A stretch of DNA of 38,914 bases, taken from a virus. The stretch lies in the IMG/VR virus record IMGVR_UViG_3300030329_003664, positions 1 to 38,914 of that record; one strand, given 5' to 3'. Under the pieces are notes generated by a model, which ran no database searches, was not told the origin of the DNA, and was given only the letters and a program-made list of their open reading frames with translations. The translations under genes and the position numbers were made by a program. Positions 18,103 through 38,474 of this stretch are shown here, in pieces. Numbering within the stretch: position 1 is the stretch's first letter; each line of letters opens with the position of its first letter.

Positions 18103-18117
18103 GTATTAGGTGACAAT

Positions 18118-18156
18118 AAAGGGGGTGTAACCCATTCGCATACGTGCATCCCCTTT
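18118..18156 (+). promoter_or_regulatory. Twelve-pair hairpin between ssb and next gene
   Basis: AAAGGGGGTGTA (18118-18129) pairs with TGCATCCCCTTT-side bases 18145-18156, with two G-T pairs. The loop can hold GCATACGTGC, and GGGT/ACCC offers a competing small hairpin. There is no T-run, so it may be an attenuator or RNA-stability element rather than a terminator. Confidence 0.55.
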
Positions 18157-18177
18157 AAATTTAAATAGGAGATTATT

Positions 18178-18423: not shown

Positions 18424-20134
18424 AGAATTTGCTTTTGGTACGCATAACAGACATCATTTTGTAGATGTAAATAAAATGGGAGACTATATGAATATGGCAC
18501 AAGATACATTTATGTCGCTATATGATTATGATGACCATGTAATAGATTATGTTAAAAAGAAAAGGAGCTTGTCAGGATATGACGGTATTATGTATATGCC
18601 TGATGAGTTCATACTAGACGTAGATGGTTCCAATCCTGAGAATGCTTTTGATAAACTACAAGGCTTACTATTATTGCTCGAAGAATTTGATATTCCTAGG
18701 CAAACATATTTTAGTGGCACTGGATTTCATGTCCACATACCTCAAGAAGCATTTAGGTGGAAACCGTGTGATGATTTACATCTTAAAGTAAAAGAAGAGT
18801 TGAAAGAAAAAGGTATATTTGATTTTGCAGATCCTTCTGTGACTGATAAAACTAGGTTAATACGAGTACCTAATACATTAAATAGCAAGTCTAATCTTTG
18901 GAAGGTCCAATTAAATATAATGGGAAATATCAAAGAAATAATGGATTATGCTGTAAGTGCTAAAGAATTGAAAGATTTAGATCACGAATGCGATCCAGTA
19001 TTTGATGTGTTAGAAAGAAAAGTAAAATCTACTAAAGAATATCAGAAAGTATCTTTAGGAAGACAGCCAGACCCAGTCAACTATCCATGTATTCATGGTA
19101 TGCTAGAAGGAACTGGTCAAGGTCAAAGACATCAAGTAGCCTTAAGATTAGCAGCACATTTTAGATGGTTATATCCTGAAGACTTAGTAAGAAATGTTAT
19201 GGAGGCTTGGAGAATCCAAGTAGATAATCCAGAGCATCCGTTTACAGCAAAAGAAATGGATGGTATAATAACAAATTGCTATGTAGGTCATGATGGTGCA
19301 GGATATAGATATGGATGTAGTGATATTATAATGGATGAGTATTGTAAAAATACTTGCAAGTTATATAAATCAAAGAAGTCTCAAACAATGATGGATGCAA
19401 AAACCATGGAAGCAGAGTTTGTAGATTTCTTAGCTTCAAATAGAGAGCCATTAAATCTAGGGAAGTTATATGGTCAAGACTTTCCAATTTATCCAGGAGA
19501 AGTAGTGATAGTTCAAGCTCCACCAAAGTCTATGAAGACTATGTTGTTGCAAAACTGGGTAAACGCATTTAAAAGACCTACCTATTTTATTGAAATGGAA
19601 ATGAGTCCAAGACAGATATGGTCTAGATTTGTTATGATGGAAATGGGATGGAATGATGAGCAATTAAAGAATCATTATGCTGAAATGAGTCAGAGTTTAA
19701 CAGATAAATTTAACTGGCTTACAGTAGAATATGGCTCTTGTTATCCTAATGAGCTTGAGAAAAGACTATCTTTACTAGCAGTTAAACCTGAAATTGTTGT
19801 TGTTGATCACCTTGGACTATTAAGATCCAAGCAAAGAGATAACAATATGAAAGTAGAAGAAGCATCTCAATCATTAATGGAACTAGCTGTTCAACATAAA
19901 GTAATAATATTTGCAGTATCTGAGATAACTAAATCAGCCATGACAGAAGGTATGAATATAGCTTCATCCAGAGGTTCATTTAGAATAGCTTATAATGCAA
20001 ATAAAGTATTATCAATCACTCCATTTAGGAATGAGGATAATGTCATAAAATCTCTTCAAGTAGAATCTACTGCTAACAGAGAAAAGGAATGGTTAAATGT
20101 TAATCTTCCTATAAGCGGAGTTCAAATCCGATGA
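18416..20134 (+). CDS. Primase-helicase fusion protein
   Basis: This 572-aa protein should make primers and unwind DNA at the fork. The N-terminal part is archaeo-eukaryotic primase-like: FILDVDG with Asp68 and Asp70, then YFSGTGFHVHIP (98-109), then TRLIRVPNTLNSKS (146-159). Next comes a Cys region with Cys225, Cys301, Cys310 and Cys314 (CSDIIMDEYCKNTC), which resembles the iron-sulfur part of primase large subunits. The C-terminal part is a RecA/DnaB-like ATPase: variant Walker A APPKSMKT (368-375), IEMEMSPRQ, Walker B VVVDHLGLL (Asp464), and FAVSEITK. The usual glycines of Walker A are absent, leaving only the Lys-Thr pair. The domain assignments are fairly secure. Confidence 0.85.
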   Translation: MIKEFAFGTHNRHHFVDVNKMGDYMNMAQDTFMSLYDYDDHVIDYVKKKRSLSGYDGIMYMPDEFILDVDGSNPENAFDKLQGLLLLLEEFDIPRQTYFSGTGFHVHIPQEAFRWKPCDDLHLKVKEELKEKGIFDFADPSVTDKTRLIRVPNTLNSKSNLWKVQLNIMGNIKEIMDYAVSAKELKDLDHECDPVFDVLERKVKSTKEYQKVSLGRQPDPVNYPCIHGMLEGTGQGQRHQVALRLAAHFRWLYPEDLVRNVMEAWRIQVDNPEHPFTAKEMDGIITNCYVGHDGAGYRYGCSDIIMDEYCKNTCKLYKSKKSQTMMDAKTMEAEFVDFLASNREPLNLGKLYGQDFPIYPGEVVIVQAPPKSMKTMLLQNWVNAFKRPTYFIEMEMSPRQIWSRFVMMEMGWNDEQLKNHYAEMSQSLTDKFNWLTVEYGSCYPNELEKRLSLLAVKPEIVVVDHLGLLRSKQRDNNMKVEEASQSLMELAVQHKVIIFAVSEITKSAMTEGMNIASSRGSFRIAYNANKVLSITPFRNEDNVIKSLQVESTANREKEWLNVNLPISGVQIR

Positions 20135-22129: not shown

Positions 22130-25100
22130 TCATCTAAGAGCCCGAATGTTATCTAAAGCACTAAGAACGTCCCTCTTTTTTGATTCAGTAACACCTGTAA
22201 ATTTCTTTTTTCGTTTTTTCTTTGTTTTAAAACCTAACCATTGATAAAACTCATCACTCCATTTTCTCTGCCATTTACTGGGAAATAATCCAAACTCAAG
22301 AGCACCAGCATCCTTTAATCCCCCTGCCTTTGTAAACATAGTTGAAGTATAATTATATGTTCTTGCAAATTGAGAATTAATCTTAGCCCACCATTCATAA
22401 TTCCTTTGAAGCTCAGGATCTCGAAGTGCTTTTTTAGCTGACAATTCAAATGCATTGCTACCCCACTCTCCATTAAATCCCATTCCTTCTTTTACTTGAG
22501 TAGCAGGATTTTTACCAATGACATCATACAAATTCATCAGTTCTACAGCACTAGCTAAGTATTGAAAGTTTGGACCCAAGAAATATTGTCCACCTTGTCC
22601 ATATGTAGCTTTATCAAGTGCTTCCAAAGCTTCCTTTGATGCTTCACCTTTAAGAAGTTTTTCTCTATTAACAGTCTGCCAATACCACATTGCCTCACCA
22701 GTTTCAAATACATCATTAGGTATAAGTTTTACAAAATTAGTTCTTGCTGCAATAGACCCTCCAACAATCATTGTTTGCAATAGACCAAATCTAAGAGCCC
22801 TCCATACTTCTTGACTTGTAAAGTCTCCAGCACCTAAAGAAATACCAGCTTCCTTTACCCATCTATGCATTAAATTAAACATATTAAATCTATAATGAGA
22901 AAACTGACCAATAGCTGTCTTTGTAAATTGAGTAAGAGCCGCCTCACCCTTCTCTGCTCTAATAATTTTAGCTTTAGCCCACTTAGAGTATTCGAAATGC
23001 AAATCTAATACAGAATTATAAGCAATTTGCGCTGAAGTCTTGTCAATCCAATTTTCTAATACTTCTTCGTGCTTAGCACCATATTTTTCTTGAAAATCTT
23101 TATATGTAACCTGATGATCCTCTCCCTTAGATTCTCTAATTTTAGCTATATCTTTAGGAGATAATACTTTTCTTGCTAGCCAAGTTCTATTAGAATTAGA
23201 AAGATTCATATTAGCCAATGCAAATGCTGTTCTAAAGGTACCAGATCTATTCCAATCCTCTACAAGTTTATGCATAAATCCAAACTTTTTAGCTACATTT
23301 CCTGCTACTGCTGCTACAGGCTCAAGTGTTCTAGTTTCACCACCTCTTGATTGAAGCTCTCCATTTTTATCAACATATAACTGTCTATTATTTAAATAAG
23401 CATCATCTAATGCACCTCTTGATTGCTCACTAACAGTCATTTCAGATTTTGTTAAAGCATCCCAAGCATTTGAGGCTTTACTTTTACCATCGTACCATTG
23501 CAATCCATACTCTCTAAGCCATCTAGTAACCTTAGAAACATTGTCTTTTGCTCCTCCAACTTGCTTATAAAAGTTAGGTGCATCAAACATAGAAGCTTTA
23601 AATCCAAACTCTACAAATTCATACAATCTTTGAGTTCCATTTCTAGCTGCAGAACGAACATTTCCACCCATTAATCTAAAATATGTGAAAGCAGTCATTA
23701 TTCTTTGAACATCATTAACAAGAGTATCTGGTTGTTTTTCTATATTAGATGCTTCTTTCCAAACAGATCGCATAACTTCCAACATTGATTCTGCAGATTC
23801 TGCTATATCTTCTCTACCTTTTTCTCTGGCAGGTTTTAAATGTTCTTTTATAATAGCTTGTGAACCCTTACTAAACGTATCTTTAACATGAGTTTTATAA
23901 TTAAATAAACCAACATCACTAGTATATTTCTTTAAAAAAAAGTATGGGTCATTATCCCATTGCACATCCATTACAGGATTTTTCGGTTTTGCTACATTAA
24001 CAATACTTTCAAACTCACCAATCTCAGCTTCAATTTTTTTATCTAAAGTAAGATTTCCTTCTTCAACTTCATTTCGTATCTTCTTAACAGTTTCCAAAAG
24101 ACCCAATGTATACTTAGTCATATAATGCTTAGAAAATGCAACCTTTCTATCAGGATGAGATTGAGGTTCAGTAGTTAAATCTGGTTTAAATCCTAGTTCT
24201 TTAAACTGTCTATCTTCAATCATATATTTATGATCAATAGTTTTCCCTTCCTGATCAATTCTTTTTTGAAACTCAATGGCTTTTATTAATCCATTAACTC
24301 TATCAATTATAGGTGTAGCCCAGCCTAAATCCTTTGCAGCAGCCATTTGCCTTACTTTCTCTAGCCCTCTTGTTAAGCTTTTAACTCCAGCCGCTCTTAC
24401 AAAATTATAATTCTTTCGTATATCATAAAGAATACTCTTTTGATTACTATCAATAGGTCTTTCTTTCCCTAAATGATCTTTCCATTTAATAGTTTCTATA
24501 TCAACACCCTGTAATACATCGGTTAATATTAAAAAAGCTTGTCCTTGACCTTTCGAATGAAAGTCTGTTAATTCTTGACGATTTTTAACTAATCTTGCAT
24601 TAAGTCGACTTCGTTCCAAAGAACTTTTAGATTGCTTTATAGCTTTTACTAAAAAAGAATATTCATCATTTAATTTTCTTAATCTTTTAGCTCCACCACT
24701 AGAGAAGTTAGACTTTTCAACAATAGATGCACCCATTGTTAGTCCTAAATCTTTAACTTTACTTAACATATCATTAACTTGCCTAGAAGTTTCATTTGTA
24801 TAATTTCTAAAAAAAGAACTTTCGCTTATTATACCATCTTGAAATCTTTTAAGCTCAGGGATATTCTCCATAGCAGCCCTAGGTAAATGAAACTGAGCCC
24901 ATATAGGACCATCTTTCCTAGCTATTAACTTATCAAAATATTTTAACCCTATTTCAAATTTCCTAACATCACTTAAAGTAATAGGTTCGTCAGACAAACT
25001 AAAATCTTTCTTTGTATATTTTAAAAATATATCTTTAAAATTACTGTTAGTATTCCAATTTCCATCTCTAGAATTTTGAAATCTTAATTTATCTGCACCA

Positions 25101-25225
25101 GGATCTGTACCTGTCCAATCACGAGCTACATCTATCATACGCTGACGAACTAATTTCTTAGTCTCAGGAGTCATCTTATCTTCTTTTCTCTTAGCCTTTG
25201 CTCTAAGCCCACATAATAAATTCAT
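22130..25225 (-). CDS. Large internal virion (ejection) protein candidate
   Basis: This 1031-aa protein starts with ATAGGAG well placed upstream. It is mostly helical and charged, with Lys-rich C-terminal parts (WLGFKTKKKRKKKFTGV). Some segments look amphipathic (LRFGLLQTMIVGGSIAARTN, about residues 815-835). There is no signal peptide and no clear catalytic motif. It is the last gene of a late block and follows the 3010-aa gene by eight bases. Very large helical proteins in this place in podovirus-like phages often line the injected DNA path. I do not recognise a family, so the ejection role is inferred from size, charge and position. Confidence 0.65.
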   Translation of the reverse strand: MNLLCGLRAKAKRKEDKMTPETKKLVRQRMIDVARDWTGTDPGADKLRFQNSRDGNWNTNSNFKDIFLKYTKKDFSLSDEPITLSDVRKFEIGLKYFDKLIARKDGPIWAQFHLPRAAMENIPELKRFQDGIISESSFFRNYTNETSRQVNDMLSKVKDLGLTMGASIVEKSNFSSGGAKRLRKLNDEYSFLVKAIKQSKSSLERSRLNARLVKNRQELTDFHSKGQGQAFLILTDVLQGVDIETIKWKDHLGKERPIDSNQKSILYDIRKNYNFVRAAGVKSLTRGLEKVRQMAAAKDLGWATPIIDRVNGLIKAIEFQKRIDQEGKTIDHKYMIEDRQFKELGFKPDLTTEPQSHPDRKVAFSKHYMTKYTLGLLETVKKIRNEVEEGNLTLDKKIEAEIGEFESIVNVAKPKNPVMDVQWDNDPYFFLKKYTSDVGLFNYKTHVKDTFSKGSQAIIKEHLKPAREKGREDIAESAESMLEVMRSVWKEASNIEKQPDTLVNDVQRIMTAFTYFRLMGGNVRSAARNGTQRLYEFVEFGFKASMFDAPNFYKQVGGAKDNVSKVTRWLREYGLQWYDGKSKASNAWDALTKSEMTVSEQSRGALDDAYLNNRQLYVDKNGELQSRGGETRTLEPVAAVAGNVAKKFGFMHKLVEDWNRSGTFRTAFALANMNLSNSNRTWLARKVLSPKDIAKIRESKGEDHQVTYKDFQEKYGAKHEEVLENWIDKTSAQIAYNSVLDLHFEYSKWAKAKIIRAEKGEAALTQFTKTAIGQFSHYRFNMFNLMHRWVKEAGISLGAGDFTSQEVWRALRFGLLQTMIVGGSIAARTNFVKLIPNDVFETGEAMWYWQTVNREKLLKGEASKEALEALDKATYGQGGQYFLGPNFQYLASAVELMNLYDVIGKNPATQVKEGMGFNGEWGSNAFELSAKKALRDPELQRNYEWWAKINSQFARTYNYTSTMFTKAGGLKDAGALEFGLFPSKWQRKWSDEFYQWLGFKTKKKRKKKFTGVTESKKRDVLSALDNIRALR

Positions 25226-25233
25226 TTAATCTC

Positions 25234-28200
25234 CTATTTATAACAATCAAATTCTCGTTCAACTAATTCTTGAGCAGACTCTTTGACAGCTCCTCTTTCT
25301 CCTAAATCTTTTCGTCTAATAGCATCCATTTCACTTATAAATACTTTTCTGGTTCCCCAATTTCGTAATGCTTGAGTTTCATCAAGAACATACTCTTGTC
25401 TACCCCATTGATCAGCCCTTGAAATCCCCACCTTTTCCATTTCTAGCTGAGCTTTATACAGAAGAACAGGATCTACTAGCCCTGGTATATTCCCTGTGGC
25501 ATAGTCTATCATAAGTTTAGCAGCATCTCTAGTATTTTTATTAATAGCATCTTGCCTATCAAATATATCTTGATTTAAATGTCTTTGCCTACCAGCGTAT
25601 CCTTTTAAACTTCCTGGTTCTGTTAACATCCTAGAAGATATTAATTCAATGTCCATATTAGGATTTTTTACAGATACCCAAGCAGCATTCTTACGTATTT
25701 GAATGTCTTCTAAAATTTCACTAGCTATTTCTTTTATTCCTAAATCTCTTCTATATTCTCCTGTTGATATCTCAGCTAGCAAATTCATTAATGGTTCGCT
25801 TAATCCATTTTCATAGAACATATAATCCTTAATAGCTCTCTTAGAACCATTACTAGATATATCTCTAATGCTTATAACTTTATCACTTGTTTGTGGAGTT
25901 AATATTCTCATAATTAAAGCTTTACGAAACATATTTATAGTAGGGTCAATTCCTTCTAAGTCACCTTTAAATAATCCATCAAATAAAATTTGTTTCTTTC
26001 TAGTAGAAGTATCAAAGTAATCCTGTCTAGATTTATTGTCTATACGTTTAAAACTATCTCTCTCAGATAATATTTGACTTAATATACTATTGTATTTATT
26101 ATTGATGTTCTGAGTTTCTTGTTTAGTGCTATAGGATCTTCTCATTCCTGATATTCTATCTGTAACTATAGGAGTTCCTGAAAAAGCTTCATACAATACT
26201 CTTAATCCAGTTTGCTGTTGCCCATCTGCAATAGAAAAACGTCTTCCATTTATAATTACTCTATCTTTATTTGAGATGGCTTTTGTATTAGAACTCCCTG
26301 GCTGTATAACCTCTTTTATCTTTCCATTCTTTCCAACAACAACTAAAGGTTGAGGATCATTATTACGATATCTTCCTTCTGGGAAAAACTTATTTATAAA
26401 TTTTGTTTTAGGTCTATTAGCTTCAATAGGATCGTTTTTACTAAACATATATGATACAGCTTCCTCTAATGTAGATAGCAATTCACTAACTCTGCTTTGC
26501 TGTCTTTTTAAATTACGTATCTTTGTATTAGTATCAATATTTCTATTTCTATATATATTTTCATTAGCTTGAATTTCAATATTAATAGAATCTAATCTTT
26601 TCCTAAGATCTAATATTGTTAATACTCTAGCTTCATCTTTAACATACTCAGTTAAAGCTTCATTAAATAATTTATTCTTCCTTATTACTTGATCAGTTAC
26701 AGAGATGTCTCCTGCAAATCCATTTTCTATCCACTCTACTATCTCGTCTTTGGCAGTATTCCCTCTTTTAACACCCAATTCTTTTAAAGAAACTAAATCA
26801 TTATAAGTATTATACAATTGCTTCATAGCAACATCATACGGATTTCTAGAAGAATCAAAATATCTAGTTGCTGCTGTTAGTCCAGGCTCAATATTAACAA
26901 GATTTCTATCTATCCCCCAATCCTTAGTAATATCAAACGATTTTACATATAAATTATGCCATGCATTACCATAATTCTCAAGAGTTGCTTTCCTTTCTAT
27001 CCCAACATCATCTGCTTCAACGCCTTTGTTATATTTTAAATACCTATTAATAGGATTAATAAGTCTCATTTTAATAGCATCTCTTACTTGAACAAACCTA
27101 TCAGCTTGTAAATCAAATCCATCTACTGAATTAAATTTACCTGGATCTATTCTCCTTCGATATCCTATCTCAAAAATACCATCTGGCCCAAATAAAACTT
27201 GATCTTGTGTTCGTGTTATAGAATTAACTCTTTCCTCAGCAGGTAAGTTTTTATATGCATCAATAAATCTTTTAGCTAATTCTGAAATATTATCAACTGT
27301 TCTAATATATTTACCCTGTTTGGCCAATCGTACTTCAAATGTACTAATACCTTCTATCATCCCAGGAGCATTAAATGTTGCTAATACGCTTTGCTTCCCC
27401 CCGAATATATTAGCTAAATAAGTAACCGTTTGATGCATTTTTATAAATCTACCTCTAGCAGCATTTACTTCAGATAACAACATATCATTACTATAATTTG
27501 CTTCAAATAAATCAGGCCATTTCTGAGAAAGCCATCCACCTCTACTAGGGTCAAACAATCTATTAATTTCACTCGTAGGATTTTTAGAAGAACCTGTGAT
27601 TAACGCAGATAGTTTATTTGTTTCTCTCCAGAACTGACCAGGAGCAGCTACATAATTAAATGATTTATCAAAATCAAAATCTGCATCTTGAGGTTTAATT
27701 GCATCTATAGCATTCATCATACTAACATTACCTGATTTTTCAGGCATATGATATTTACCCTCATACTTACCCATTCTACTTATAACAATATCACCAATCA
27801 TATTTCTAGGCTGTCTTACATTTAACATTCCAACAGATAATGAATTACCATTCATGTCAACTTTAGTTTCTAGGAACTCAGCTATTTCCCATAAATACTT
27901 TCTGTTCCCCTCGCTTCCCATATAAGGATTCATGTCTGCATCTCTTTCTGCATATAGTTTACTTTCTATCTCAAGAGCTTTATCAAAAGCAGCCTTATTA
28001 TCCTTAAGCATTTGCTCTCCATCTTTAGTTTTTCCTTTAGTTATAGGATTTCCACTGTCGATATCTCTCAAATACCCATCTTTGTCAATATGCCTACCTT
28101 CTATCTGAAGAAATCTTTCTCCCTCTATTTCAATTAAATATCCATCAGCAATTCTTTCCCTAACGCCTTTCTCAGGAGTATATTTTATAGTCTGTATTAT

Positions 28201-31200
28201 TACATTATGAGCTACACCAGAAGGCTTCCATTGCTTATTAGCAGCATAATAAGAAGGAACAAACTCTCCGAAAAATTGTGTAACAGGTCTATCTCCTATA
28301 GTACTCCTAATCGTACTTTTTATTTGACCGTTACTAGCTGTCATCACATCTAGTGATCCATCAGGAACTCTTCCTCCTGCAATAGAACCATTATTAATAA
28401 AATAATTTATAAGATTTTCCTCAATTCTTCTTAACGCCCATGGCTCTAGGATCATACCTTCCCTACTTAATATTGCTTGAATACCACTATTAAGAGCAGC
28501 AGGATCACCAGATTCAGACATTGCTCCAAATATCTCTTGTGCTAATTTAGTTCTATAAAATGGATCGGAATACATTTCAGCCATTGAATCTTTATACTTC
28601 GTAATTTTACTTTCTATATCAATCCATTTAGCAATTCCATTATCATGATGCATATGAACTCCAGTATTTGCACCAACAGAAGGATCGTGATTACCCTTCG
28701 ATACAGTTCTTAAACTCAATGCATCTAAGGGTATCTCTTGTATTTGAGGTATATTCAATTTACCTGGTTTCAAAATATGCTCATTCCACGGAATATTTAA
28801 ATCATTTTTATTTGTCGTTGGAGCTAAACCAGTATACATATCCCAAAGATCTTCACCTTTTCTTTCTTTTATTTTATTTATTTTATTAGCTGATTTGAAA
28901 GTAATCATATCTACACCTAATGTGCTAAATAATGCATCTAATACAGGATTATATTTAAATGCAGTTTTATTTAAATCCATTTCTATTCTACCGTAATTAG
29001 GATCACTCTTATCTAAATAGGTTATTTTTGAATGAGAAATAGTGGGTTTTATTCCTCCTGATTTAAAACCAGTAATTTCTCCATTTTTATTAGTAATAAT
29101 CATATCAGGATGCAATCCTACCATAGCTAATGATGCTAAATAAAGTTCTCTAGTAACAAATGTTTCTCCATCTACAATAGATTTTCTTGCTTCTTGATGC
29201 AATCTAATAGTTTCATCATACGCAGCTTTATCAAGAGGATCTTTGGGGTCATTTAACCTCTTCTCTAACTCTAATTCTAATCTAGACAACGAATTAAATA
29301 TATCAAACTCTCCAGGTTTCAATCCCTCCATACTATCATCTATAGATATTTTTTTAATTTTTCTATTCGGATCAAACCAATCCTTAACTTCGGCATATAC
29401 ATTTTGAAATACTTCTGAAGTACTTTCTCTATATAAAATATCTGTCTTTCTAAGATTCTCTGCAGTAGGGATATAACTATTTCTACTCTCATTAAGTTTA
29501 TCATATTTAAAAGTATTCTTTGCAAGGTCATGATCTAAGTTTATATTCCCCTTTCCTTCTATTAACTCGGGAATAAGTCCAGGGTTATTTAAAAGCATCC
29601 TAGTCATCTTTATACCTTTTACTACACTTTCAACATTATTTCCTTCAGCCGATGCGACTGATCTCATATCTGCTAAAAATGCTCGTACTGCATCATACTT
29701 AGGTCCTTGTCTGCCAAAATCACCATCAAATACAGCCTCTAATTGTTTATATAATTCTCCATGCTCACTGAATTGAGTTGCAAGCTCTCGATGAATTGAA
29801 CCTTGACTTCTATCTACTCTAACAGCAATAGATATAGATTCATTGATAGGTATAATTTCGAACATATTCCCAGTAGGAGAATCTTGTTTAGATGGATCAT
29901 ACTTATCTAGGTTATTTTTTCTATAAAATTCAGATTCAATCTTAGAATGATAAATACCATACTGCCCACTTTTCAATTCTTTATTAATAATATTTAAATC
30001 TCTTTGAGTAATATCCCTAATAACTCTTCCATCACGATCATATCCTGTCTTTTCTACTAAGAATATACTGTTTTGATTTGGATCAAGGTACTCTAAAAGG
30101 CCCGTAAACCCTCTATTTGGAACCTTTCCCATGACAGAACTATCTTGTATTAGTCTTCCATTTTTCATGTCTAATTTAAGCGTTTTTACTGCTATCTTAG
30201 AAAAATAATTAGTAGCTATACCAACAATATCAGCATCTACATGAGCATCTGTTTCTCGCTGCTCTATTTTCTTTCTCTCATTTACTGCCTGAGCTCTTTG
30301 TCTCAAAGGTTTTATTATAAAATTATTAAAATTTTCTAAAGTTAATGGGACATCTCCTGCTAATCTATTGATAGCGTCTACAGTATTTCTAATATCAAAT
30401 TTAAGTTTTACATCCTTTATCTCTCTAGTATTCTCCCAATAATCTCTTAAAACAGCCTTGGCAAATTCTTTTATATCAGCAGAGGACCTTGCAGTACTTC
30501 TATCAATATCAAACAATCTATCTAATTCATGCATTGGAATATTGTATTTGCTTGCAAACATTGTAGAGGTTATTTTTAAAGCATTATCAGAAACATCTTT
30601 AGATACTACAGACCTAGAAGAAACTTCATTCCTCACAAAATCTTGTATATTTATTTCATCCCAAGCAATTCTTTGCCTTGAATTTTGGATGTTCTGATCA
30701 ATACGTACTACATTTTCATAAAAATCTATCCTAGAACTACCCTGAGGATTTGTACTGAGACCTCGTAAAATAGTTTCTATATCCGCTCCATTTTTAGCAA
30801 CAGCCCTTAATGTATAAGGATCATGTGAATCCAATGCTCCTTTAATTGTTTCTTTTAAATTTATTAAAGCTGTTCTATCGTCCATAAGAGATGTTAATTC
30901 ATCAGAAGCTCTCTTTTTTCTAGTCGCATCTGGTATCTCATTAAAACCCATTTTTATATAATTAATTCTTGCATTAAATACATCTATCTCATCTTGAATC
31001 ATTTCCTTGTAGATTTTAGAAAAATCCTTAGACATATCAGACAAAGCTATTTCCCCAGAAAATTTAGATTTTAATATAGAATTATACCAATCCATACTTT
31101 CATCAGGTGTTACACCTTCTTTAGCTCTAAATGGATATCCTGCTCTTTGTGCTATACCATATATATTTTCATAATGCTTAAGTGCTTCATCGTACTGTCT

Positions 31201-34200
31201 CTCGCTAATCTTACCCTGTCTACGCAACATTAATAAATTCTCTTGGACAAGAGTAGGGTTAGGTAAACTCATAACCTCTCCCTCACCTTGATAATTAATC
31301 TTTGTATCTTTTTCTAACTCCAGTAAAGAAGCTTTAACGTCAACACCAGCCTCTCTATCTGATATTTCTATCTTATCAAGAGCCTTCATTTTAATCATTC
31401 TTTTCAAATCATTATAAGACTCTATTTGAGATTCAGTTTTCTTTGTAAATATATCACCTAATAAACTTTCCACTGACTCTTTTAATCCAGTAGCCTCTTG
31501 TATGGTAATAAGCTTAGAATCTTTTGCACTAGTCCCTGGATTCAAATCAACAAATATATCATGAAGGTCTTTAAGGAATTGGTTGACTTCGCCAAAAGAA
31601 GCAGCATCTTCACCTTTAGCAATATCAAGTTCAGGTTTCTTCCTAGTTAAGAAATACTTCTCTATACTAGCATATACTTCCCCAGCAGTTTCTCTTGAAA
31701 GACCATGCTCCTTTGACCCTGATAAAAACTCATAAGCAACCTGTCTTTGCTGCAATCTAATAACATCATCATATGCCAAGGTCCAAGATCTATCTCTTAA
31801 TATCAAAGGATCCAGCTCAATGCCCTGTTCTCTCCACTTAGAACCCCAAACATAATCCATCATTCTCTCAGAATAATTATCAAACAATTCTTTTATCTGC
31901 CTCTGCTGTTCACCTGTAATATTTCGATACTCTTCAGGAAGTTTTCCCGACTTTTTAATCCAATTATTTTTTTGTCCTTGTTGAAAGATAGTAGCTATTG
32001 TTTTATTAACAGTTCCATTTCCAAAATCAAGTACATCCATAATATCTGGAATACGAAATTCGCCAGTCAAAGAATCAGGATTAACATCTTGACCAATAGC
32101 TCTATATACTTCTGTTACAAAATCTTGTAGTATTTTAGTAGGAGCTTCTATAGCTTTAATAATTGTCTTTTCTTTAAACTCACGTAAGTGCCTATCTACA
32201 TTTAAAACATCCATTTTATTGCCAGCAAATTCCATACCTGCTACTTGCTTAACAATTTCAAATGCTTGTTCTGGTGTGTATTTATTTAGTCCTACAAATT
32301 CTTTTGTTTCGTTTTCATAAAACTTTAAAATAGTCTTTGCAACTTTGAGTTTTCTATTTAAATGTCCTGCTTCTTCAAAGTTAATCTCTCCATTCCTTAG
32401 CAAATGAGCTATGTTTCTATCAAATGCTGCGCTGAGATCAATCCCATCAGGACTTTCCTTCCCTTCAAAAGGCTTCATAATATTTTCAATTACTCTAAAT
32501 TCTGGAGCATCATCAAACTGTCTTCTAATATTATTATAAACATTTTTATCGGGATCCATATTATTTCTATATGCAGAATTAATAAATTCAATATTATTCT
32601 TATCAATACCATAAGCATTCATAGCTCCCATCATCTTACGAAGCTTATTTTGTTTATAGTTGTAATATTCTGGAATCTTCCCTGTCTGGAATAGCTTTTG
32701 AAAAACACCAGGACTGGCTTCCACTTTAAAACTATGAGGAGCTCTAGTAAAGTAAGCTGCTGTTAATATATTAGCTGCAATTTCTTCTTTTGATTCTCCA
32801 AATGCATTCTTTAATCCCTCAATACCAATTCCATGCTCCTTAAATGAATGATATAATCCAGTAACATTCATTGCCGCTACACCAGCCATCATTCTAGGAA
32901 GAGATGCCAACATATCTTTTCCAAATTCTTTGGAGAATTCGATCGGAGCTTTTTTAATAAATTCCATACGTACATCTGAAAGATATCGCCTCATTGTTCT
33001 AGTGTCAGCATCTGTAGTAGCTTTTATCCACCAATCATCAGGTAATTTAGACCATTTCTTATTTCCTGCTCTAAATAATACATCATCCAAATTCTTTCCT
33101 GACAAATTATGCATTGCTGATATTTGATTTCTTAATTCTTCATTAGTCATATTCTTTAAAGATTTACCACTTTTAAACATATTACGTGTCATTTCCTTAA
33201 ATCGCTTTAAATGATTAGCACTAGTACCACCTCCAAATGGTCCCTTTGCATGCTTTACTATCCCGAATAATGAGAATATTGCAGCTTCATGAAAGGATTT
33301 ACTAAGCCAATCTCCTGTGCCCGAAATCCAATTTAAGTCATATGCCTTATCTCTATCTTTAATATATTGATATTCATGATATCCTGTATTTTCGACTCCA
33401 AGAGATGCTTTAATTCCAGTATCAATAGCACTATGTATTGTACCCATCGCAAATCCAATAGTAGCATCATATCCCATCGCCCCTAATAATAAATGAGCAT
33501 GAGGAGTACCTCTAAAACCTGGAACCTTATTAGCTAGCATTTTTAAAAGAGCCTCAGCACTTTCAGGATTATTTCTAGTTACAATATCAACTGTTCTTTT
33601 AGAAAGACCTTCTAGGATTTCATCGTCAACTATATTTAATGTTTTACCAATATTATTTTTTACAGAACTTCGAAGACTAATATCAATAACTTCTTTGCCA
33701 ATACCTTTATTAATAGCATTTACAACAGATCCTTGAGCAAGTACATCATATGCATCATCTACAATTCCTTTTGCAATATCATCCGTAAATAAATCAGAAA
33801 CAGAATCCATACCTTGTTTAGTAGGGATTGCTGATGCTTCTTCTATTAATTCTTTTGTAGACTTTTTAACTGCAGCTTTTGCCCCAACTCCACCAATCTT
33901 TGAAAGTCCTCTAACACCTAGATTTGCAAGAGCACCACCTGCGATAAATCCTGGAATCATACCTACAGCAGAACCAATCATATATCCTGCTTTACCAGAG
34001 TTAGTCAATTCATCCCAATCTCCCGCAACATCACCAGCAAGAGTTTCCTCCCAAGTATCAGCACGATCTCCATATGTTCCTTCTAAATATACATCATATG
34101 CCCCTAAGGCACCCATTGTAGCTTGCTCTGCAACACCCCAACGTGCTTGACCAAGAAAATCCCACAATGCACTACCTGTAGTAGCTACAGTAGCATCTGG

Positions 34201-34266
34201 TTCTTGTAAATTTTTACTTGATTCTATTTGCTGTAAAGCTAATAACAGCTCTTCATTTGTTGCCAT
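25234..34266 (-). CDS. Giant virion protein with DFDxD polymerase-like motif
   Basis: This 3010-aa protein covers nearly a quarter of the window. The N-terminal region has Gly/Ala hydrophobic stretches (about residues 95-122, 255-290, 450-475) that could enter membranes. Residues 2194-2201 read DADFDFDK, with Asp2196, 2198 and 2200 in a DxDxD arrangement followed by Lys. VRQPRN (2150-2155) lies 44 residues earlier, like the R-P element before the catalytic Asp loop in multisubunit polymerase beta-prime. DMITFKSANK (1786-1795) could provide the barrel-1 lysines. This recalls crAss-like phage virion RNA polymerases and YonO/QDE-1. It is inferred from motif spacing. If right, the protein may enter the cell and transcribe early genes. 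Otherwise it is an ejection protein. Confidence 0.62.
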   Translation of the reverse strand: MATNEELLLALQQIESSKNLQEPDATVATTGSALWDFLGQARWGVAEQATMGALGAYDVYLEGTYGDRADTWEETLAGDVAGDWDELTNSGKAGYMIGSAVGMIPGFIAGGALANLGVRGLSKIGGVGAKAAVKKSTKELIEEASAIPTKQGMDSVSDLFTDDIAKGIVDDAYDVLAQGSVVNAINKGIGKEVIDISLRSSVKNNIGKTLNIVDDEILEGLSKRTVDIVTRNNPESAEALLKMLANKVPGFRGTPHAHLLLGAMGYDATIGFAMGTIHSAIDTGIKASLGVENTGYHEYQYIKDRDKAYDLNWISGTGDWLSKSFHEAAIFSLFGIVKHAKGPFGGGTSANHLKRFKEMTRNMFKSGKSLKNMTNEELRNQISAMHNLSGKNLDDVLFRAGNKKWSKLPDDWWIKATTDADTRTMRRYLSDVRMEFIKKAPIEFSKEFGKDMLASLPRMMAGVAAMNVTGLYHSFKEHGIGIEGLKNAFGESKEEIAANILTAAYFTRAPHSFKVEASPGVFQKLFQTGKIPEYYNYKQNKLRKMMGAMNAYGIDKNNIEFINSAYRNNMDPDKNVYNNIRRQFDDAPEFRVIENIMKPFEGKESPDGIDLSAAFDRNIAHLLRNGEINFEEAGHLNRKLKVAKTILKFYENETKEFVGLNKYTPEQAFEIVKQVAGMEFAGNKMDVLNVDRHLREFKEKTIIKAIEAPTKILQDFVTEVYRAIGQDVNPDSLTGEFRIPDIMDVLDFGNGTVNKTIATIFQQGQKNNWIKKSGKLPEEYRNITGEQQRQIKELFDNYSERMMDYVWGSKWREQGIELDPLILRDRSWTLAYDDVIRLQQRQVAYEFLSGSKEHGLSRETAGEVYASIEKYFLTRKKPELDIAKGEDAASFGEVNQFLKDLHDIFVDLNPGTSAKDSKLITIQEATGLKESVESLLGDIFTKKTESQIESYNDLKRMIKMKALDKIEISDREAGVDVKASLLELEKDTKINYQGEGEVMSLPNPTLVQENLLMLRRQGKISERQYDEALKHYENIYGIAQRAGYPFRAKEGVTPDESMDWYNSILKSKFSGEIALSDMSKDFSKIYKEMIQDEIDVFNARINYIKMGFNEIPDATRKKRASDELTSLMDDRTALINLKETIKGALDSHDPYTLRAVAKNGADIETILRGLSTNPQGSSRIDFYENVVRIDQNIQNSRQRIAWDEINIQDFVRNEVSSRSVVSKDVSDNALKITSTMFASKYNIPMHELDRLFDIDRSTARSSADIKEFAKAVLRDYWENTREIKDVKLKFDIRNTVDAINRLAGDVPLTLENFNNFIIKPLRQRAQAVNERKKIEQRETDAHVDADIVGIATNYFSKIAVKTLKLDMKNGRLIQDSSVMGKVPNRGFTGLLEYLDPNQNSIFLVEKTGYDRDGRVIRDITQRDLNIINKELKSGQYGIYHSKIESEFYRKNNLDKYDPSKQDSPTGNMFEIIPINESISIAVRVDRSQGSIHRELATQFSEHGELYKQLEAVFDGDFGRQGPKYDAVRAFLADMRSVASAEGNNVESVVKGIKMTRMLLNNPGLIPELIEGKGNINLDHDLAKNTFKYDKLNESRNSYIPTAENLRKTDILYRESTSEVFQNVYAEVKDWFDPNRKIKKISIDDSMEGLKPGEFDIFNSLSRLELELEKRLNDPKDPLDKAAYDETIRLHQEARKSIVDGETFVTRELYLASLAMVGLHPDMIITNKNGEITGFKSGGIKPTISHSKITYLDKSDPNYGRIEMDLNKTAFKYNPVLDALFSTLGVDMITFKSANKINKIKERKGEDLWDMYTGLAPTTNKNDLNIPWNEHILKPGKLNIPQIQEIPLDALSLRTVSKGNHDPSVGANTGVHMHHDNGIAKWIDIESKITKYKDSMAEMYSDPFYRTKLAQEIFGAMSESGDPAALNSGIQAILSREGMILEPWALRRIEENLINYFINNGSIAGGRVPDGSLDVMTASNGQIKSTIRSTIGDRPVTQFFGEFVPSYYAANKQWKPSGVAHNVIIQTIKYTPEKGVRERIADGYLIEIEGERFLQIEGRHIDKDGYLRDIDSGNPITKGKTKDGEQMLKDNKAAFDKALEIESKLYAERDADMNPYMGSEGNRKYLWEIAEFLETKVDMNGNSLSVGMLNVRQPRNMIGDIVISRMGKYEGKYHMPEKSGNVSMMNAIDAIKPQDADFDFDKSFNYVAAPGQFWRETNKLSALITGSSKNPTSEINRLFDPSRGGWLSQKWPDLFEANYSNDMLLSEVNAARGRFIKMHQTVTYLANIFGGKQSVLATFNAPGMIEGISTFEVRLAKQGKYIRTVDNISELAKRFIDAYKNLPAEERVNSITRTQDQVLFGPDGIFEIGYRRRIDPGKFNSVDGFDLQADRFVQVRDAIKMRLINPINRYLKYNKGVEADDVGIERKATLENYGNAWHNLYVKSFDITKDWGIDRNLVNIEPGLTAATRYFDSSRNPYDVAMKQLYNTYNDLVSLKELGVKRGNTAKDEIVEWIENGFAGDISVTDQVIRKNKLFNEALTEYVKDEARVLTILDLRKRLDSINIEIQANENIYRNRNIDTNTKIRNLKRQQSRVSELLSTLEEAVSYMFSKNDPIEANRPKTKFINKFFPEGRYRNNDPQPLVVVGKNGKIKEVIQPGSSNTKAISNKDRVIINGRRFSIADGQQQTGLRVLYEAFSGTPIVTDRISGMRRSYSTKQETQNINNKYNSILSQILSERDSFKRIDNKSRQDYFDTSTRKKQILFDGLFKGDLEGIDPTINMFRKALIMRILTPQTSDKVISIRDISSNGSKRAIKDYMFYENGLSEPLMNLLAEISTGEYRRDLGIKEIASEILEDIQIRKNAAWVSVKNPNMDIELISSRMLTEPGSLKGYAGRQRHLNQDIFDRQDAINKNTRDAAKLMIDYATGNIPGLVDPVLLYKAQLEMEKVGISRADQWGRQEYVLDETQALRNWGTRKVFISEMDAIRRKDLGERGAVKESAQELVEREFDCYK

Positions 34267-34278
34267 ATATGTGTATTC

Positions 34279-35292
34279 CTATTTACTTAGAATATCTATT
34301 ATTTCATCTTGAGTAGAGTACCCTCCACGAACAAGTTTCCCTACGATAGAATTATTTAATTGTCTCAGACTTTCAGTTTTTTGTTTATTTAAATTATGAT
34401 ATATATCGTATTCAGTTCTAGTATTTTCTAGCTCATCTAATGCCTTAGTTACTAAAGACAATTTCTCTTGTTGCTCTTTAAGTTCTGCGGGTGGTCCCCA
34501 TGTATCTGTTTCAGGATCAAACATTAAATCTCTCATTTCAATTTTACCAACATTATCATCATCTCTAAATAAGTCTGTCCATCCCAGTGTTCCCTGAAGA
34601 AAAAGATTTGTCATTGGCACAAATGCCCCTGTTGCAATATCTGCAGGAATACCCAAAGGTCCAATCTCTCTAGTTATTGGAAATCCAAATGGATTCCCTA
34701 TCTTACCCAACATTGATCCAAAAAATCCTTCTGCTTCACTAGCCCTTTTTAAAGTCCAGTCATACTGATCTACTATACTATCTGCTGTTGGATCTACCTC
34801 TTCAAGCCACGGTATAACATAATCTCCTGCAAAAAATCTAGATCTCTCACTAAAATCCTGTGTCCTAGCCTCAACAGATGACGTTAGGTCTGCCTTTCGT
34901 TCTCGATATTCTTCAATTTCAGCAGATCTTTTTTCAGATTCTTTTTTCATTTCTTCTATCTGTACATCTGAATATCTTTCTTTTAAACTGTCATAATTAA
35001 GATTTGCTAATTTTATGGTTTCTAACATATCTTTATCAGAAATAGTTTTAGATAATGTATATCCTGGGTCCTCTGGATTACCTTCAAGTAAAGCAGTGGC
35101 CAACATATCTGCATTTACTTTCCCTTGAAGCTCTGGTATCTTTGAAATAATTTCCCTGACAGTACGTTCTTTTCCTCCAACAACATAAACAGTTTCATTA
35201 ATGTATTTATTTTTTGCATCAAAAGTATTCAAGTCTGCAAGTGGACTTAGCAATATTTGTTCTAATTGCGTAAAATCCTTAGGATTACTCAT
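34279..35292 (-). CDS. Probable internal virion protein
   Basis: I prefer ATG 35292, which overlaps the upstream stop by eight bases (337 aa); ATG 35310 would leave only a very close site. The protein is helical and charged at the start (about 100-150) and has hydrophobic Gly/Pro stretches (FGFPITREIGPLGIPADIAT). It ends in another helical part. It shares the operon with the giant protein and is 12 bases from it. It may be a core or ejection partner. Confidence 0.7.
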   Translation of the reverse strand: MSNPKDFTQLEQILLSPLADLNTFDAKNKYINETVYVVGGKERTVREIISKIPELQGKVNADMLATALLEGNPEDPGYTLSKTISDKDMLETIKLANLNYDSLKERYSDVQIEEMKKESEKRSAEIEEYRERKADLTSSVEARTQDFSERSRFFAGDYVIPWLEEVDPTADSIVDQYDWTLKRASEAEGFFGSMLGKIGNPFGFPITREIGPLGIPADIATGAFVPMTNLFLQGTLGWTDLFRDDDNVGKIEMRDLMFDPETDTWGPPAELKEQQEKLSLVTKALDELENTRTEYDIYHNLNKQKTESLRQLNNSIVGKLVRGGYSTQDEIIDILSK

Positions 35293-36667
35293 TATCATCC
35301 CATTCCACATCCTGCAATATATTATTTAAATAGATTTCAGTAGCATTATTATCATCCAAGTCATCTTTAAATACATCGAGAATATTCATATCTACATGCG
35401 AATTAAATTTATTGACAAACTCCTCAAACGTCATACCTGTATATCCAAAATACTTTTTAGCTAATACATCCAACCTTTTCTTCGCATCAGCTGACTTCGT
35501 TTGATAGTTATCATATACAGTTTGAACTAATTCTTCAAGCTTTGAAAAATCTGGAGGAGACTTCCACCCTATGCCAGGTTGATATACACCTTCTGCTTGT
35601 TTATGGATAGAACGATATTCATTAAATATTAATTCAACAAAAGTTTCATTCTCTACAAAATCCATTCCTCTTAGCTCTGCAAGCTCCTTTGCTATTGTAT
35701 TTTTAAGAAATCTAGCATTTTCAGTGTGAGAAGAAACGGACTCATCATCATAATCACCATCTGCATTTTGAGCAACTTCTAAACTAATCCAATATTGATT
35801 ATAACCAGAATCATCTGCAGCATTTGTAAGTCTTTGTTGCATATACTGACTTGCTTCTAATGCTTTTTTCTCAGCAAGATCTGAGGTATCTTTTACTCCT
35901 AGTTTCTCAATTCTAGCTGCCGTGAGCATATCTGATAATTCTGCAGCCTTAAATGCAGCTACATTCTTCCGCATCAAATCTGGCCTTGACTCTATAACTG
36001 ATCTAGCGATATCAGATTTTAATGATTCTGATTTAAATATTCTAGCTTGCTCTTCAGTAAAAGGCTGCGGGACCTGTCCTGTTTGATTAAATACATTTAA
36101 TATCTCTGGGTCATACATTTTTTGATATGTGGAATAACCAAAATCTTCTGCATCCCATACTTCTGGATCACCTCCAGCTGCCTTTCCTAATTCAGGATCT
36201 CCGCCAGTCAATACTGCACTAGCTTTAGATACTTCATCATATAATATATCTTTTAATATCTCATCTTTTCTTTTGTAGATCTCAGTATTCTTCTCCAAAG
36301 CCTCTGCCTTCGCTTCGTAATTACCAGCTTTTATTTTAGACAAAGCTAGTAAAGGACCGATGCCCTCTGTTTTAAACAACTCATTTACTAAATCCATATC
36401 AGCACCTGTCTTCATAAGGGAATCATTGGTTGTTCTGAGATTATTCTTAGCATCAATCATATCTGATTTAGCATCCTTATAATGCATTAAATTTTCAGAA
36501 TACTCTCTGTCGGCCTTCTTTAACTCTTGCTCAGCAACAATTTTCCTATCAAGCATCTTGGCTTGAGTCTCCATTTCCTGTACTTGCAATTTATATCTAA
36601 GCAAAAGAGCAGGAAGCTCTCTCGCAAAAGCAGCCATAGGATGGTCTTTAATTACTATATTTGTCAT
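35285..36667 (-). CDS. Coiled-coil virion protein
   Basis: This 460-aa protein has a long predicted coiled coil at about residues 20-150 (LQVQEMETQAKMLDRKIVAE then many Glu/Lys). The second half is mixed and acidic (QVPQPFTEEQARIFKSESLK) and contains a GLY-aromatic stretch. It has no catalytic motif. It overlaps both neighbours (20 and 8 bases), so it is translated with them. The coiled coil suggests a rod, oligomer or channel component of the internal core. Confidence 0.7.
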   Translation of the reverse strand: MTNIVIKDHPMAAFARELPALLLRYKLQVQEMETQAKMLDRKIVAEQELKKADREYSENLMHYKDAKSDMIDAKNNLRTTNDSLMKTGADMDLVNELFKTEGIGPLLALSKIKAGNYEAKAEALEKNTEIYKRKDEILKDILYDEVSKASAVLTGGDPELGKAAGGDPEVWDAEDFGYSTYQKMYDPEILNVFNQTGQVPQPFTEEQARIFKSESLKSDIARSVIESRPDLMRKNVAAFKAAELSDMLTAARIEKLGVKDTSDLAEKKALEASQYMQQRLTNAADDSGYNQYWISLEVAQNADGDYDDESVSSHTENARFLKNTIAKELAELRGMDFVENETFVELIFNEYRSIHKQAEGVYQPGIGWKSPPDFSKLEELVQTVYDNYQTKSADAKKRLDVLAKKYFGYTGMTFEEFVNKFNSHVDMNILDVFKDDLDDNNATEIYLNNILQDVEWDDNE

Positions 36668-37787
36668 ATTTTTCCTTAATAATATGTGGGATAGACGCTA
36701 ACCCAAACAAAGGGAACAATATGCTATATATCCCTACCATACCAATAGTAGCTAATTTTCCTAAAATTTTATTTTTTCTTGAGTATCCTATTACATAACT
36801 AAGAGGATTAACCCATCCATGATGAATCATGAATCCTAAGTAATTCGGCTTATTTCGCCTTGTATGGTCAATAAAAGCTGTAGTAGTAGTATCTACCACA
36901 TAGCGAACAATATTGCTTTTTTCAACCCATTTTGCTAAGAATCCACCCCATGTGTGATATCCATCCACCCATGTCTTACCTCTATCAGTACCATCATGAT
37001 GTGTATCTCTACACCATTTTACTGCATCCAATTTTTCATTATCACTCCAAGCCCCAGAATCATTTAAAGCAGTAGACACTACACAGATAGCTGCTGGTTG
37101 AAGGAATGAACCTTCACCTCGTTGTAAATTTTCACCACCAAACCAGTTTCCTCCATAATAAGTTCTTTGCCCTGCTTTATCACCTTCCCCATGTCTCAAA
37201 ACACCATCTGAATCATAATACATCCCTTTCTCTGCTGCTGATGTAGACATTCCTTCACCTCGTTCAGCAATCTGAGACCCTAATGCTGTTTGAGCTGCTG
37301 TAAGCTGACTTTCTGCATAATCCCCACGCTGTTTAGCTATATCAGTTTGAACTCCAGACTTCTTTAACGCAGTTGAAGTAAAAAGATTCTGTAATTGACC
37401 TCCTATATTTCCAAGAGCAGATCCTGTTCCTGCAAATCCTGCACTTCCTCTTAATCTTCTATCTTGTTCTACAATGTCAGAAACCTTTGATTGAGCTTCA
37501 ACAGAGAGTCCTCCAGCTCTTTTTTGCAATTCCTCAACAATCCGTCCTTGCTCAGTGTCACTAAATCTCATAAATTGATCTCTATACTCATCTGAAATAC
37601 CAGTTTCCCCATATGTTGCCAACAATGCGTCTAAATCAGTATCACTCATTTGAGCTATCTGCTGTACATCTAAATCTCCAAATGTCGAGACTGCAGATTC
37701 TGCTTCAGCTCTACTCTCTTTTGCTTGTAAATAATTACCTGCATAACCATTATGTGTCCAATTTTGTATTTTACTTATTATATACAT
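36648..37787 (-). CDS. Internal virion protein with Cys pair and membrane-like tail
   Basis: The first 200 residues of this 379-aa protein are helical and Gln/Ala-rich. A conserved-looking module follows: AAICVVSTALNDSGAWSDNE then VKWCRDTHHDG, then GYHTWGGFLAKWV. I have seen this Cys ... Cys ... GY...G pattern at the end of phage virion proteins with roles like T7 gp14. The last 60 residues hold two hydrophobic segments (LATIGMVGIYSILFPLFGLA). Membrane entry during DNA injection is a reasonable guess. AAAGGAAAAG stands before the ATG. Confidence 0.7.
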   Translation of the reverse strand: MYIISKIQNWTHNGYAGNYLQAKESRAEAESAVSTFGDLDVQQIAQMSDTDLDALLATYGETGISDEYRDQFMRFSDTEQGRIVEELQKRAGGLSVEAQSKVSDIVEQDRRLRGSAGFAGTGSALGNIGGQLQNLFTSTALKKSGVQTDIAKQRGDYAESQLTAAQTALGSQIAERGEGMSTSAAEKGMYYDSDGVLRHGEGDKAGQRTYYGGNWFGGENLQRGEGSFLQPAAICVVSTALNDSGAWSDNEKLDAVKWCRDTHHDGTDRGKTWVDGYHTWGGFLAKWVEKSNIVRYVVDTTTTAFIDHTRRNKPNYLGFMIHHGWVNPLSYVIGYSRKNKILGKLATIGMVGIYSILFPLFGLASIPHIIKEKYDKYSN

Positions 37788-37799
37788 ACTCTTTTCCTT

Positions 37800-38474
37800 T
37801 TATTGTTTCTTAAACATATCTACAAGATCACTTGGGGTAAGTCTATCTGCTGGATCTTTTTGATATAACCTACCTTCATCTACAACATCACCAACTTCAA
37901 TTTTGCCAATTACATTACCAGCCTCATCATATCTAACTCCAGTCTGACCTGGCTTTAATGGATTATACTTATATTGTTGTCTTACTTCAGCAAGCTTCTT
38001 AAGTTTATCGGCTTCACTCATATTTTGAAACTTATCTGTGGCTTTAATAGTATCAACAGCTGTATCTCCTGCCTCCTTAGCAATCTTAGCTCCTTTTAAG
38101 GCTTCTCCTGTTCCTGCAGTAACTCCTCCAATAATAGCACTACTTACAGCATCAGTAATCATTTTATTTCTTACATCCCTAGCTTCACCCGCAGTCCATC
38201 TTCCACCCTTTATATCACCTCCAGTTGCTTTAGCTCCAGCTTGGCCCAATAGACTTCCTCCTAAACTTCCAAGACCTGAGACTAGACCAACTCCTAAGGG
38301 TCCAGTAGTTCCCATTAATGCTAATAACGCCAAAGAGCCTAGAGAACCTCCCACTGTACTCCATAAACTTTGCTTGCTACCAGCTTTTTCAATAGCACCT
38401 ATTTCTTTTTGTTTCTCCAGCTCTCTACCACGAGCTATCGTTCTTTGAGTTCTAAATCCAGACATACTTAACAA
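37800..38474 (-). CDS. Gly-rich virion protein with hydrophobic segment
   Basis: This 224-aa protein has a Gly/Leu-rich hydrophobic stretch (SLALLALMGTTGPLGVGLVS, about residues 46-68), then a basic Gly-rich linker, then a helical C-terminus (KLKKLAEVRQQYKYNPL). The pattern resembles small internal virion proteins that insert in membranes. It precedes the 379-aa gene by 12 bases. Role inferred from position. Confidence 0.65.
   Translation of the reverse strand: MLSMSGFRTQRTIARGRELEKQKEIGAIEKAGSKQSLWSTVGGSLGSLALLALMGTTGPLGVGLVSGLGSLGGSLLGQAGAKATGGDIKGGRWTAGEARDVRNKMITDAVSSAIIGGVTAGTGEALKGAKIAKEAGDTAVDTIKATDKFQNMSEADKLKKLAEVRQQYKYNPLKPGQTGVRYDEAGNVIGKIEVGDVVDEGRLYQKDPADRLTPSDLVDMFKKQ

Follow-up and report, generated by a model that had tools for sequence, protein, structure and literature searches.

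The locus raises the question of what is encoded by a 3010-aa open reading frame placed in a structural operon of an uncultured marine phage, and how so large a product might leave the capsid. The window, which is the whole 38,914-nt stretch of DNA analyzed, carries the giant gene at 25234..34266 on the minus strand, as are all features described here, and the reading frame is genuine with an ATG start. Searches by sequence with the whole giant protein against Pfam, PHROGs and the PDB returned nothing useful. The initial annotation had pointed to a DFDFD string followed by lysine, with an R-x-P element ahead of it and a SANK motif approximately 400 residues ahead, all of which were located in the translation. 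The DFDFD string, a putative metal-binding triad, occupies residues 2196-2200 (27667..27681) with K2201 next; R2151 and P2153 of the R2151-Q-P2153 element (27808..27816) lie 45 and 43 residues before it, and SANK (residues 1792-1795; 28882..28893) is ahead of it at a distance of 401 residues.

D2196, D2198 and D2200 are each identical in 44/44 aligned marine proteins, a sample biased for the Asp and Lys motif residues in that many members were found by the peptide PQDAD[FY]D or a Lys motif; the triad is also kept in members found without the Asp peptide, namely the portal-derived L099, L104, G001 and G012, and L128 and L133 with variant flanks. The conservation among homologues that the initial annotation had set as a check was thus observed, and families at about 15% identity keep the triad as DNDGDH, DYDVDK or DFDLDK. 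Since several homologues have extra D-x-D-x-D strings elsewhere that are unconserved, a lone string of this type is little proof and the weight lies with conservation. P2153 is conserved in 44/44 and R2151 in 41/44. Lysines 1791 and 1795 had been singled out earlier; K1795 is Lys in 44/44, but K1791, although present, is Lys in only 17/44. K1767 (28966..28968) is invariant (44/44), and K1740 (29047..29049) is invariant in every homologue where the alignment column is filled (41 Lys, 3 gaps). Judged from conservation, the lysines that matter are 1740, 1767 and 1795, not 1791. The way into marine viral contigs was the portal gene, the peptide patterns of the giant itself being too specific. Relatives of the portal gene are very common in such contigs.

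The fold of residues 1540-2520 (26707..29649), which follow an unassigned N-terminal half, was modeled with AlphaFold2 (pLDDT 80.9, pTM 0.83). In VIA the core model matched QDE-1 with Z 12.5 over 459 residues and the phi14:2 virion polymerase (6vr4) with Z 10.3 over 626 residues, with 8% identity to 6vr4 in the structural alignment. The best 15 Foldseek matches in the PDB were all QDE-1 or RDR2 with probabilities up to 0.98, every E value above 0.001 (~1e-3) and low TM-scores of about 0.25 for the whole model. The core agrees best in fold with these RNA-silencing polymerases (Z about 12), which are eukaryotic cellular enzymes. Matches to crAss RNAPs were obtained in BFVD, such as cr50_1 at E 9e-10, and the profile aligned with Crassvirales RNAPs at hhalign E 7e-5 compared with 0.5-0.7 for three control alignments. 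A separate profile run paired the RxP and DFDxDK elements with those of Crassvirales RNAPs, and the Lys blocks also aligned; the Lys and Asp blocks were aligned separately, as a forced long whole-core hhalign put the triad in the wrong place. The N4 virion RNA polymerase (vRNAP) gp50 has the T7-type single-subunit polymerase fold, a candidate rejected for the giant on finding that the core matches two-barrel enzymes instead. The initial annotation had proposed a two-barrel RNA polymerase and a fold comparison with such enzymes including that of phi14:2; the fold matches, the invariant triad and the Crassvirales profile match bear this out. The giant is almost certainly a single-chain two-barrel RNA polymerase of putative activity, judging from sequence and model, and the fold match suggests that the conserved lysines sit in a barrel.

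The polymerase gene follows genes for a tail-type protein and Cys-free cargo, similar to the phi14:2 gene order. Two proteins of cargo or ejection type, 343 aa (34279..35310) and 460 aa (35285..36667), are without Cys; the same operon encodes proteins of 379 aa with 2 Cys (36648..37787) and 224 aa without Cys (37800..38474). The next gene downstream of the giant (22130..25225) encodes a nearly all-helical partner protein of 1031 aa (putative C subunit) for which the BFVD matches were internal core proteins of T7-like phages. Its match to phi14:2 gp076 in BFVD was weak (Foldseek E 0.05), as was that to the Crassvirales C subunit (hhalign E 0.11; controls 0.3-0.8), and a VIA search gave no chain above Z 7.4, a result that is uninformative for a helical protein. 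In crAss001, gp47, gp49 and gp50 were detected in virions by mass spectrometry (PMC10172136). By analogy, the marine polymerase is very probably carried in the virion, that of a phage of short-tailed type, and ejected into the host.

Two other functions were weighed. The giant might be a two-barrel protein that has decayed or been repurposed, is inactive as a polymerase and is retained for ejection or as a scaffold, as could be argued from most of the 3010 residues lying outside the polymerase core; this is very improbable given that the three Asp, K1767 and K1795 are fully invariant across very diverged families, as catalysis would require. A polymerase made after infection and not injected has precedent within the two-barrel superfamily, of which YonO is a non-virion member. 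The same is true of P23-45 gp64 (PMC10770324). Such a role is very improbable for the giant in view of its place in a structural operon beside cargo-type genes, cysteine joints the same as those of Crassvirales virion polymerases described below, and a near absence of Cys common to ejected N4 gp50 (0/3500 aa) and T7 gp15/gp16 (0).

The lineage was evaluated with the head genes and translation start sites. Shine-Dalgarno-like sites precede 52-76% of genes in the marine lineage compared with 9-15% in crAss phages (phi14:2, 3/32; crAss001, 5/34), in agreement with the earlier argument that the host is not of the Bacteroidota; Bacteroidota-type starts without Shine-Dalgarno sites are contradicted by this strong use. 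The marine TerL HMM matched N4 at 1.6e-12, and none of the phi14:2 and crAss001 proteins scored above noise. Since the terminase profile matches N4 and none of the Crassvirales proteins that were searched, the lineage is unexpected for such a polymerase, as had been anticipated. No clear match to Crassvirales was found for the portal and MCP; kinship was looked for by comparing TerL, portal and MCP and was not found, but a remote homology may exist. DNA and protein searches among isolate phages found no relative of the marine lineage. With these results the range of two-barrel virion RNA polymerases would take in a lineage of marine phages that do not look like those of Bacteroidota.

A feature that was not part of the initial annotation is the distribution of cysteine. 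The sole Cys of the giant is C3008 (25243..25245), third residue from the C-terminus, and the sole Cys of the partner protein is C5 (25211..25213) in a predicted disordered N-terminus. Across 102/102 marine gene pairs, representing 58 clusters at 95% identity and 17 at 40%, exactly one Cys is found in the giant, 0-11 residues from its C-terminal end, and exactly one in the protein of about 1000 aa that follows, at residue 3-15. The expected number is about 18 Cys per 3000 aa, and the probability of one or fewer is 2.6e-7 per protein. No open reading frame fusing the giant with its partner was found in the marine sequences.

Facing cysteines are likewise present in Crassvirales at breaks of the chain formed by A, polymerase and C. 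In phi14:2, Cys1797 of gp078, the last residue, faces Cys3 of the RNAP, and Cys2179 of the 2180-residue RNAP faces Cys3 of gp076; the same is true of crAss001, in which gp47 C2339 faces gp50 C5 and gp50 C2404 faces gp49 C5, and of DAC15, cr106_1 and cr126_1. In phages with A joined to RNAP in one polypeptide (Fpv1, cr1_1 and ProJPt-Bp1), or with a fusion of RNAP and C (Rudgehvirus, LMMB and ctbg_1), the Cys pair is found at the remaining break only. The outer chain ends, that is the N-terminus of A and the C-terminus of the C subunit, are without Cys. Gene adjacency does not account for the pairing, since gene A sits on the opposite DNA strand in crAss001, DAC15 and cr106_1. Among 332 adjacent gene pairs in 28 phage stretches, facing terminal cysteines were found in 24, of which 23 are RNAP junctions. 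Some Crassvirales chains have extra internal Cys, and strict exclusion of Cys is therefore confined to the marine lineage. A further point against the pattern is that crAss002 and cr110_1 conform to it only when their annotated RNAP starts are shifted downstream. Disulfides are present in crAss001 virion tails (PMC10172136). No published description of cysteine coupling was found in the open-access literature on terminal cysteines, disulfides and virion polymerases.

The cysteine pattern suggests that the ejected polymerase cargo is probably coupled head to tail by a disulfide. The C-terminal Cys of the giant and the N-terminal Cys of the helical, internal-core-protein-like partner with which it would travel may bond to each other in the mature virion as a disulfide between the two chains; a point against this is that virion assembly takes place in the reducing cytoplasm, so that the bond would have to arise after lysis. 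The linked chain of about 4000 residues would be threaded through the tail as one unit, and the host cytoplasm would reduce the disulfide and release the enzyme, which would transcribe the first phage genes. Stray disulfides would have to be avoided in cargo that has to pass the tail unfolded and traverse the oxidising periplasm; with the remaining chain and adjoining cargo kept Cys-free, no other disulfide would be possible. In Crassvirales the same joint would occur at one or two places (A|RNAP, RNAP|C) set by the chain split. In general form, it appears fairly probable that tailed phages injecting multi-protein RNA polymerases join the polypeptides by one disulfide per joint into a reducible covalent train, using cysteines restricted to the facing ends of giants otherwise poor in Cys. 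Fusion of the genes would remove the device from that joint, and the marine lineage would share it with Crassvirales, to which its relationship is remote at most.

A disulfide requires a Cys pair but does not follow from one, and other roles were considered for the terminal cysteines of a virion two-barrel polymerase. They may not be bonded to one another, serving instead as separate attachment points to portal, tail or lipid or in homodimers. Some upstream cargo proteins of Intestiviridae (LMMB, Rudgehvirus and crAss002) have a near-C-terminal Cys where the start of the next protein has none, so that a terminal Cys may serve otherwise. Separate attachment is nonetheless unlikely: the cysteines face one another at breaks, are gone wherever a joint is fused and do not occur at the outer chain ends, and the adjoining marine cargo proteins have no Cys with which to pair. 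The meeting of two cysteines at a protein junction is also what metal binding, or ligation or splicing of the split-intein or native chemical ligation type, might produce. These are extremely improbable, as no conserved His/Cys set is visible at the termini for a metal, Pfam shows no intein domain, and A and RNAP are on opposite strands in crAss001. The split-intein and ligation readings were rejected on the requirement for Cys at a cleaved N-terminus, the Cys here being at residue 3-15 behind an ordinary start codon.

The closest known systems place the proposed disulfide coupling in context. The Crassvirales virion RNAPs (phi14:2 6vr4; crAss001 gp50) resemble the giant as single-chain two-barrel enzymes with a Lys block followed by RxP...DxDxD, and share with the marine phage the operon order of tail, small cargo, polymerase and C protein as well as facing terminal cysteines at polypeptide breaks. 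Unlike Crassvirales, with genomes of about 100 kb, the marine lineage has genomes of about 50 kb, the N4-matching terminase profile, strong Shine-Dalgarno use and strict Cys exclusion. The same two-piece layout is found in Azobacteroides phage ProJPt-Bp1 (gp17/gp16) and Flavobacterium phage Fpv1 (gp33/gp34), in which a giant of 3481 or 4401 aa carries the triad, with a Cys at one of its two final residues, and is followed by a C protein with Cys3; these differ in being Bacteroidota phages of about 90-100 kb with a longer C protein and one extra Cys per C protein, and gp17 of ProJPt-Bp1 has four. Thermus phage P23-45 gp96 likewise has a two-barrel virion RNAP inside a giant structural protein almost or entirely devoid of Cys, but in this long-tailed phage the RNAP is N-terminal and fused to the tape measure protein and, with zero Cys, there is no such joint. 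N4 vRNAP gp50 (Schitoviridae), from a phage with a terminase like that of the marine phage, is also an injected, Cys-free polymerase of about 3500 aa encoded in an ejection operon; it differs in being one chain without cysteine coupling.

The Cys pattern offers a simple, testable answer to how the several giant unfolded cargo proteins of short-tailed phages may leave the capsid in fixed order and ratio and meet in the host, the facing cysteines being suggestive of a breakable sulphur bond between the giant and the next protein that would serve ordered delivery. If true, such coupling should appear as a defined covalent bond in the virions of crAss001 and phi14:2, both of which are available in laboratories. 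The facing-Cys signature also shows the order of the chain and allows gene starts to be corrected.

The 3010-aa ORF described in the initial annotation is present on the minus strand (25234-34266), and the motifs DFDFD2196-2200 followed by Lys, RQP2151-2153 and SANK (within FKSANK1790-1795) show the spacings reported there. Family, PDB-sequence and isolate-phage searches with this giant protein returned no useful match. The route to relatives of the 38.9-kb IMG/VR virus record was the portal gene (2116-4410), for which the best 80 related loci of at least 598 IMG/VR matches were 68-84% identical. The phage group of this portal is very common, and isolate phages yielded almost no match to the gene. 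Genomes of relatives measure about 50-54 kb, and the window is probably a fragment of one. Genomes of the portal-related loci encode giant homologues with 41-45% identity, remote ones about 16-21%, and a core-alignment scan yielded 44 loci. Invariant in the 44-sequence alignment are, among others, G1717, K1767, K1795, G1937, G2000, P2153, D2188, D2196, D2198, D2200 and D2336, and K1740 is Lys in every filled position of its column. The proposed Asp triad is conserved among homologues; of the two lysines singled out with it, K1795 is invariant and K1791 variable. The triad region in remote families reads DNDGDH, DYDVDK or DFDLDK, which are variants of the RNA-polymerase motif.

An AlphaFold2 model of residues 1540-2520, built with 40 homologues, had a pLDDT of 80.9 and a pTM of 0.83. 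The top fifteen Foldseek matches in the PDB were QDE-1 and RDR2; the largest subunits of cellular RNA polymerases ranked next, and no match was as good as E 0.001. VIA-align gave Z 12.5 over 459 residues with QDE-1, and Z 10.3 with the phi14:2 virion polymerase (6vr4) over 626 residues, the longest alignment. Matches among predicted viral structures included Crassvirales polymerases (cr50_1, E 9e-10) and close relatives at E 1e-25. Profile comparison with ten Crassvirales polymerases gave E 7e-5, where three unrelated alignments scored 0.5-0.7, and in block alignments with these polymerases both the Lys block and RxP...DFDxDK superposed. The fold matches, profile comparison and block alignments together indicate with high confidence that the giant is a two-barrel RNA polymerase, as originally suggested. 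As an enzyme it is a divergent new addition to the two-barrel virion polymerases, a group that also contains the crAss-like enzymes and the tape-fused enzyme of P23-45 (PMC10770324). The A0A516... entries of BFVD, a set of predicted viral proteins, are the nearest structural relatives of both the core and the next protein downstream; hence, the marine lineage is already present in public protein sets.

From the terminase the genes run through portal, scaffold, capsid and tail genes to a 0.8-1.4-kaa tail-type protein; behind it lie two to four small cargo proteins, then the giant and finally a protein of 870-1050 aa, an arrangement similar to that of phi14:2. The terminase profile matched N4 at 1.6e-12 and found no match among the Crassvirales proteins searched. 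Shine-Dalgarno-like sites are present upstream of 52-76% of the marine genes and of 61% of N4 genes, whereas the values for phi14:2 and crAss001 are 9% and 15%. These results agree with the earlier proposals that the host probably lies outside the Bacteroidota and that the polymerase module resides in an unexpected lineage. The tail block also encodes a protein of 256-263 aa (17967-18746 in relative L149, with equivalents in the other eight) that is very conserved, carries the motif VTPDKHFPxHD and by eye appears phosphoesterase-like; phi14:2 tail genes likewise include a metallophosphoesterase, although a profile search between the two gave no link.

The sole Cys of the giants lies at the extreme C-terminus in 44/44 aligned sequences, and that of the next protein at the extreme N-terminus. 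Facing single cysteines were found in all 102 giant-partner pairs without exception (which form 58 clusters at 95% identity and 17 at 40%), 0-11 residues from the C-terminal end of the giant and at partner positions 3-15. Other long proteins of the marine genomes average 0.6% Cys, from which about 18 would be expected per giant. The protein immediately upstream of the giant is Cys-free in 10/10 genomes, the whole cargo block contains 9 Cys in 15,755 residues, and the known ejected proteins N4 gp50, T7 gp15 and T7 gp16 likewise have none. T7 gp14 (7729-8319 in T7 stretch L166) has one Cys, at residue 2.

An independent test of the pattern was run in CRASSVIRALES. In phi14:2 the sole Cys of gp078 is the last residue, the RNAP has Cys 3 and 2179 of 2180, and the sole Cys of gp076 is residue 3; this pattern recurs, with some extra internal Cys, in crAss001, DAC15, cr106_1 and cr126_1. 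Where A and RNAP are fused (Fpv1, cr1_1, ProJPt-Bp1) the Cys pair is at the remaining RNAP/C break, the 4401-aa fusion of Fpv1 having Cys 4400 only, and where RNAP and C are fused (Rudgehvirus, LMMB, ctbg_1) it is at the A/RNAP break. For crAss002 and cr110_1 the expected RNAP Cys is present if translation begins later than annotated: in crAss002 (L173:13151) an in-frame start about 32 residues further on reads MSC, regaining the N-terminal Cys, and the Cys of cr110_1 (L241:13436) is at residue 17. Both annotated start codons look too early. Among 332 adjacent same-strand gene pairs from 28 phage stretches, facing terminal Cys occurred in 24, of which 23 were polymerase-chain junctions. Since gene A is on the opposite strand in crAss001, DAC15 and cr106_1, gene adjacency, overlap or frameshifting is excluded as the source of the pattern. 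An upstream cargo protein of Intestiviridae has a single Cys near the C-terminus (L172:2539-5124, 860/861; L171:490-2763, 747/757; L173:2456-4129, 550/557) and the protein that follows has no Cys near its start, the C-terminal Cys possibly serving a homodimer or another partner.

The simplest reading of the pattern is that disulfide coupling would join two or three polypeptides into one covalent chain. The disulfide would form after lysis, the coupled polypeptides would thread as one chain, and cytoplasmic reduction would release them. Tail and portal-vertex proteins of mature crAss001 virions contain disulfides, and the virion also carries gp47, gp49 and gp50, whose exit requires at least partial unfolding (PMC10172136). 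Residues 1-16 of the partner have low confidence in the AlphaFold model, compatible with a flexible coupling. No description of such coupling was found in the open-access literature searched and, if confirmed, it would be a new device. In its predicted fold the partner is similar to internal core proteins of T7-like phages; its similarity to phi14:2 gp076 is weak. Residues about 90-128 of the giant, close to its N-terminus, form a conserved Gly-rich hydrophobic stretch that is possibly membrane-active; W84, G94 and G98 are kept in 9/10.
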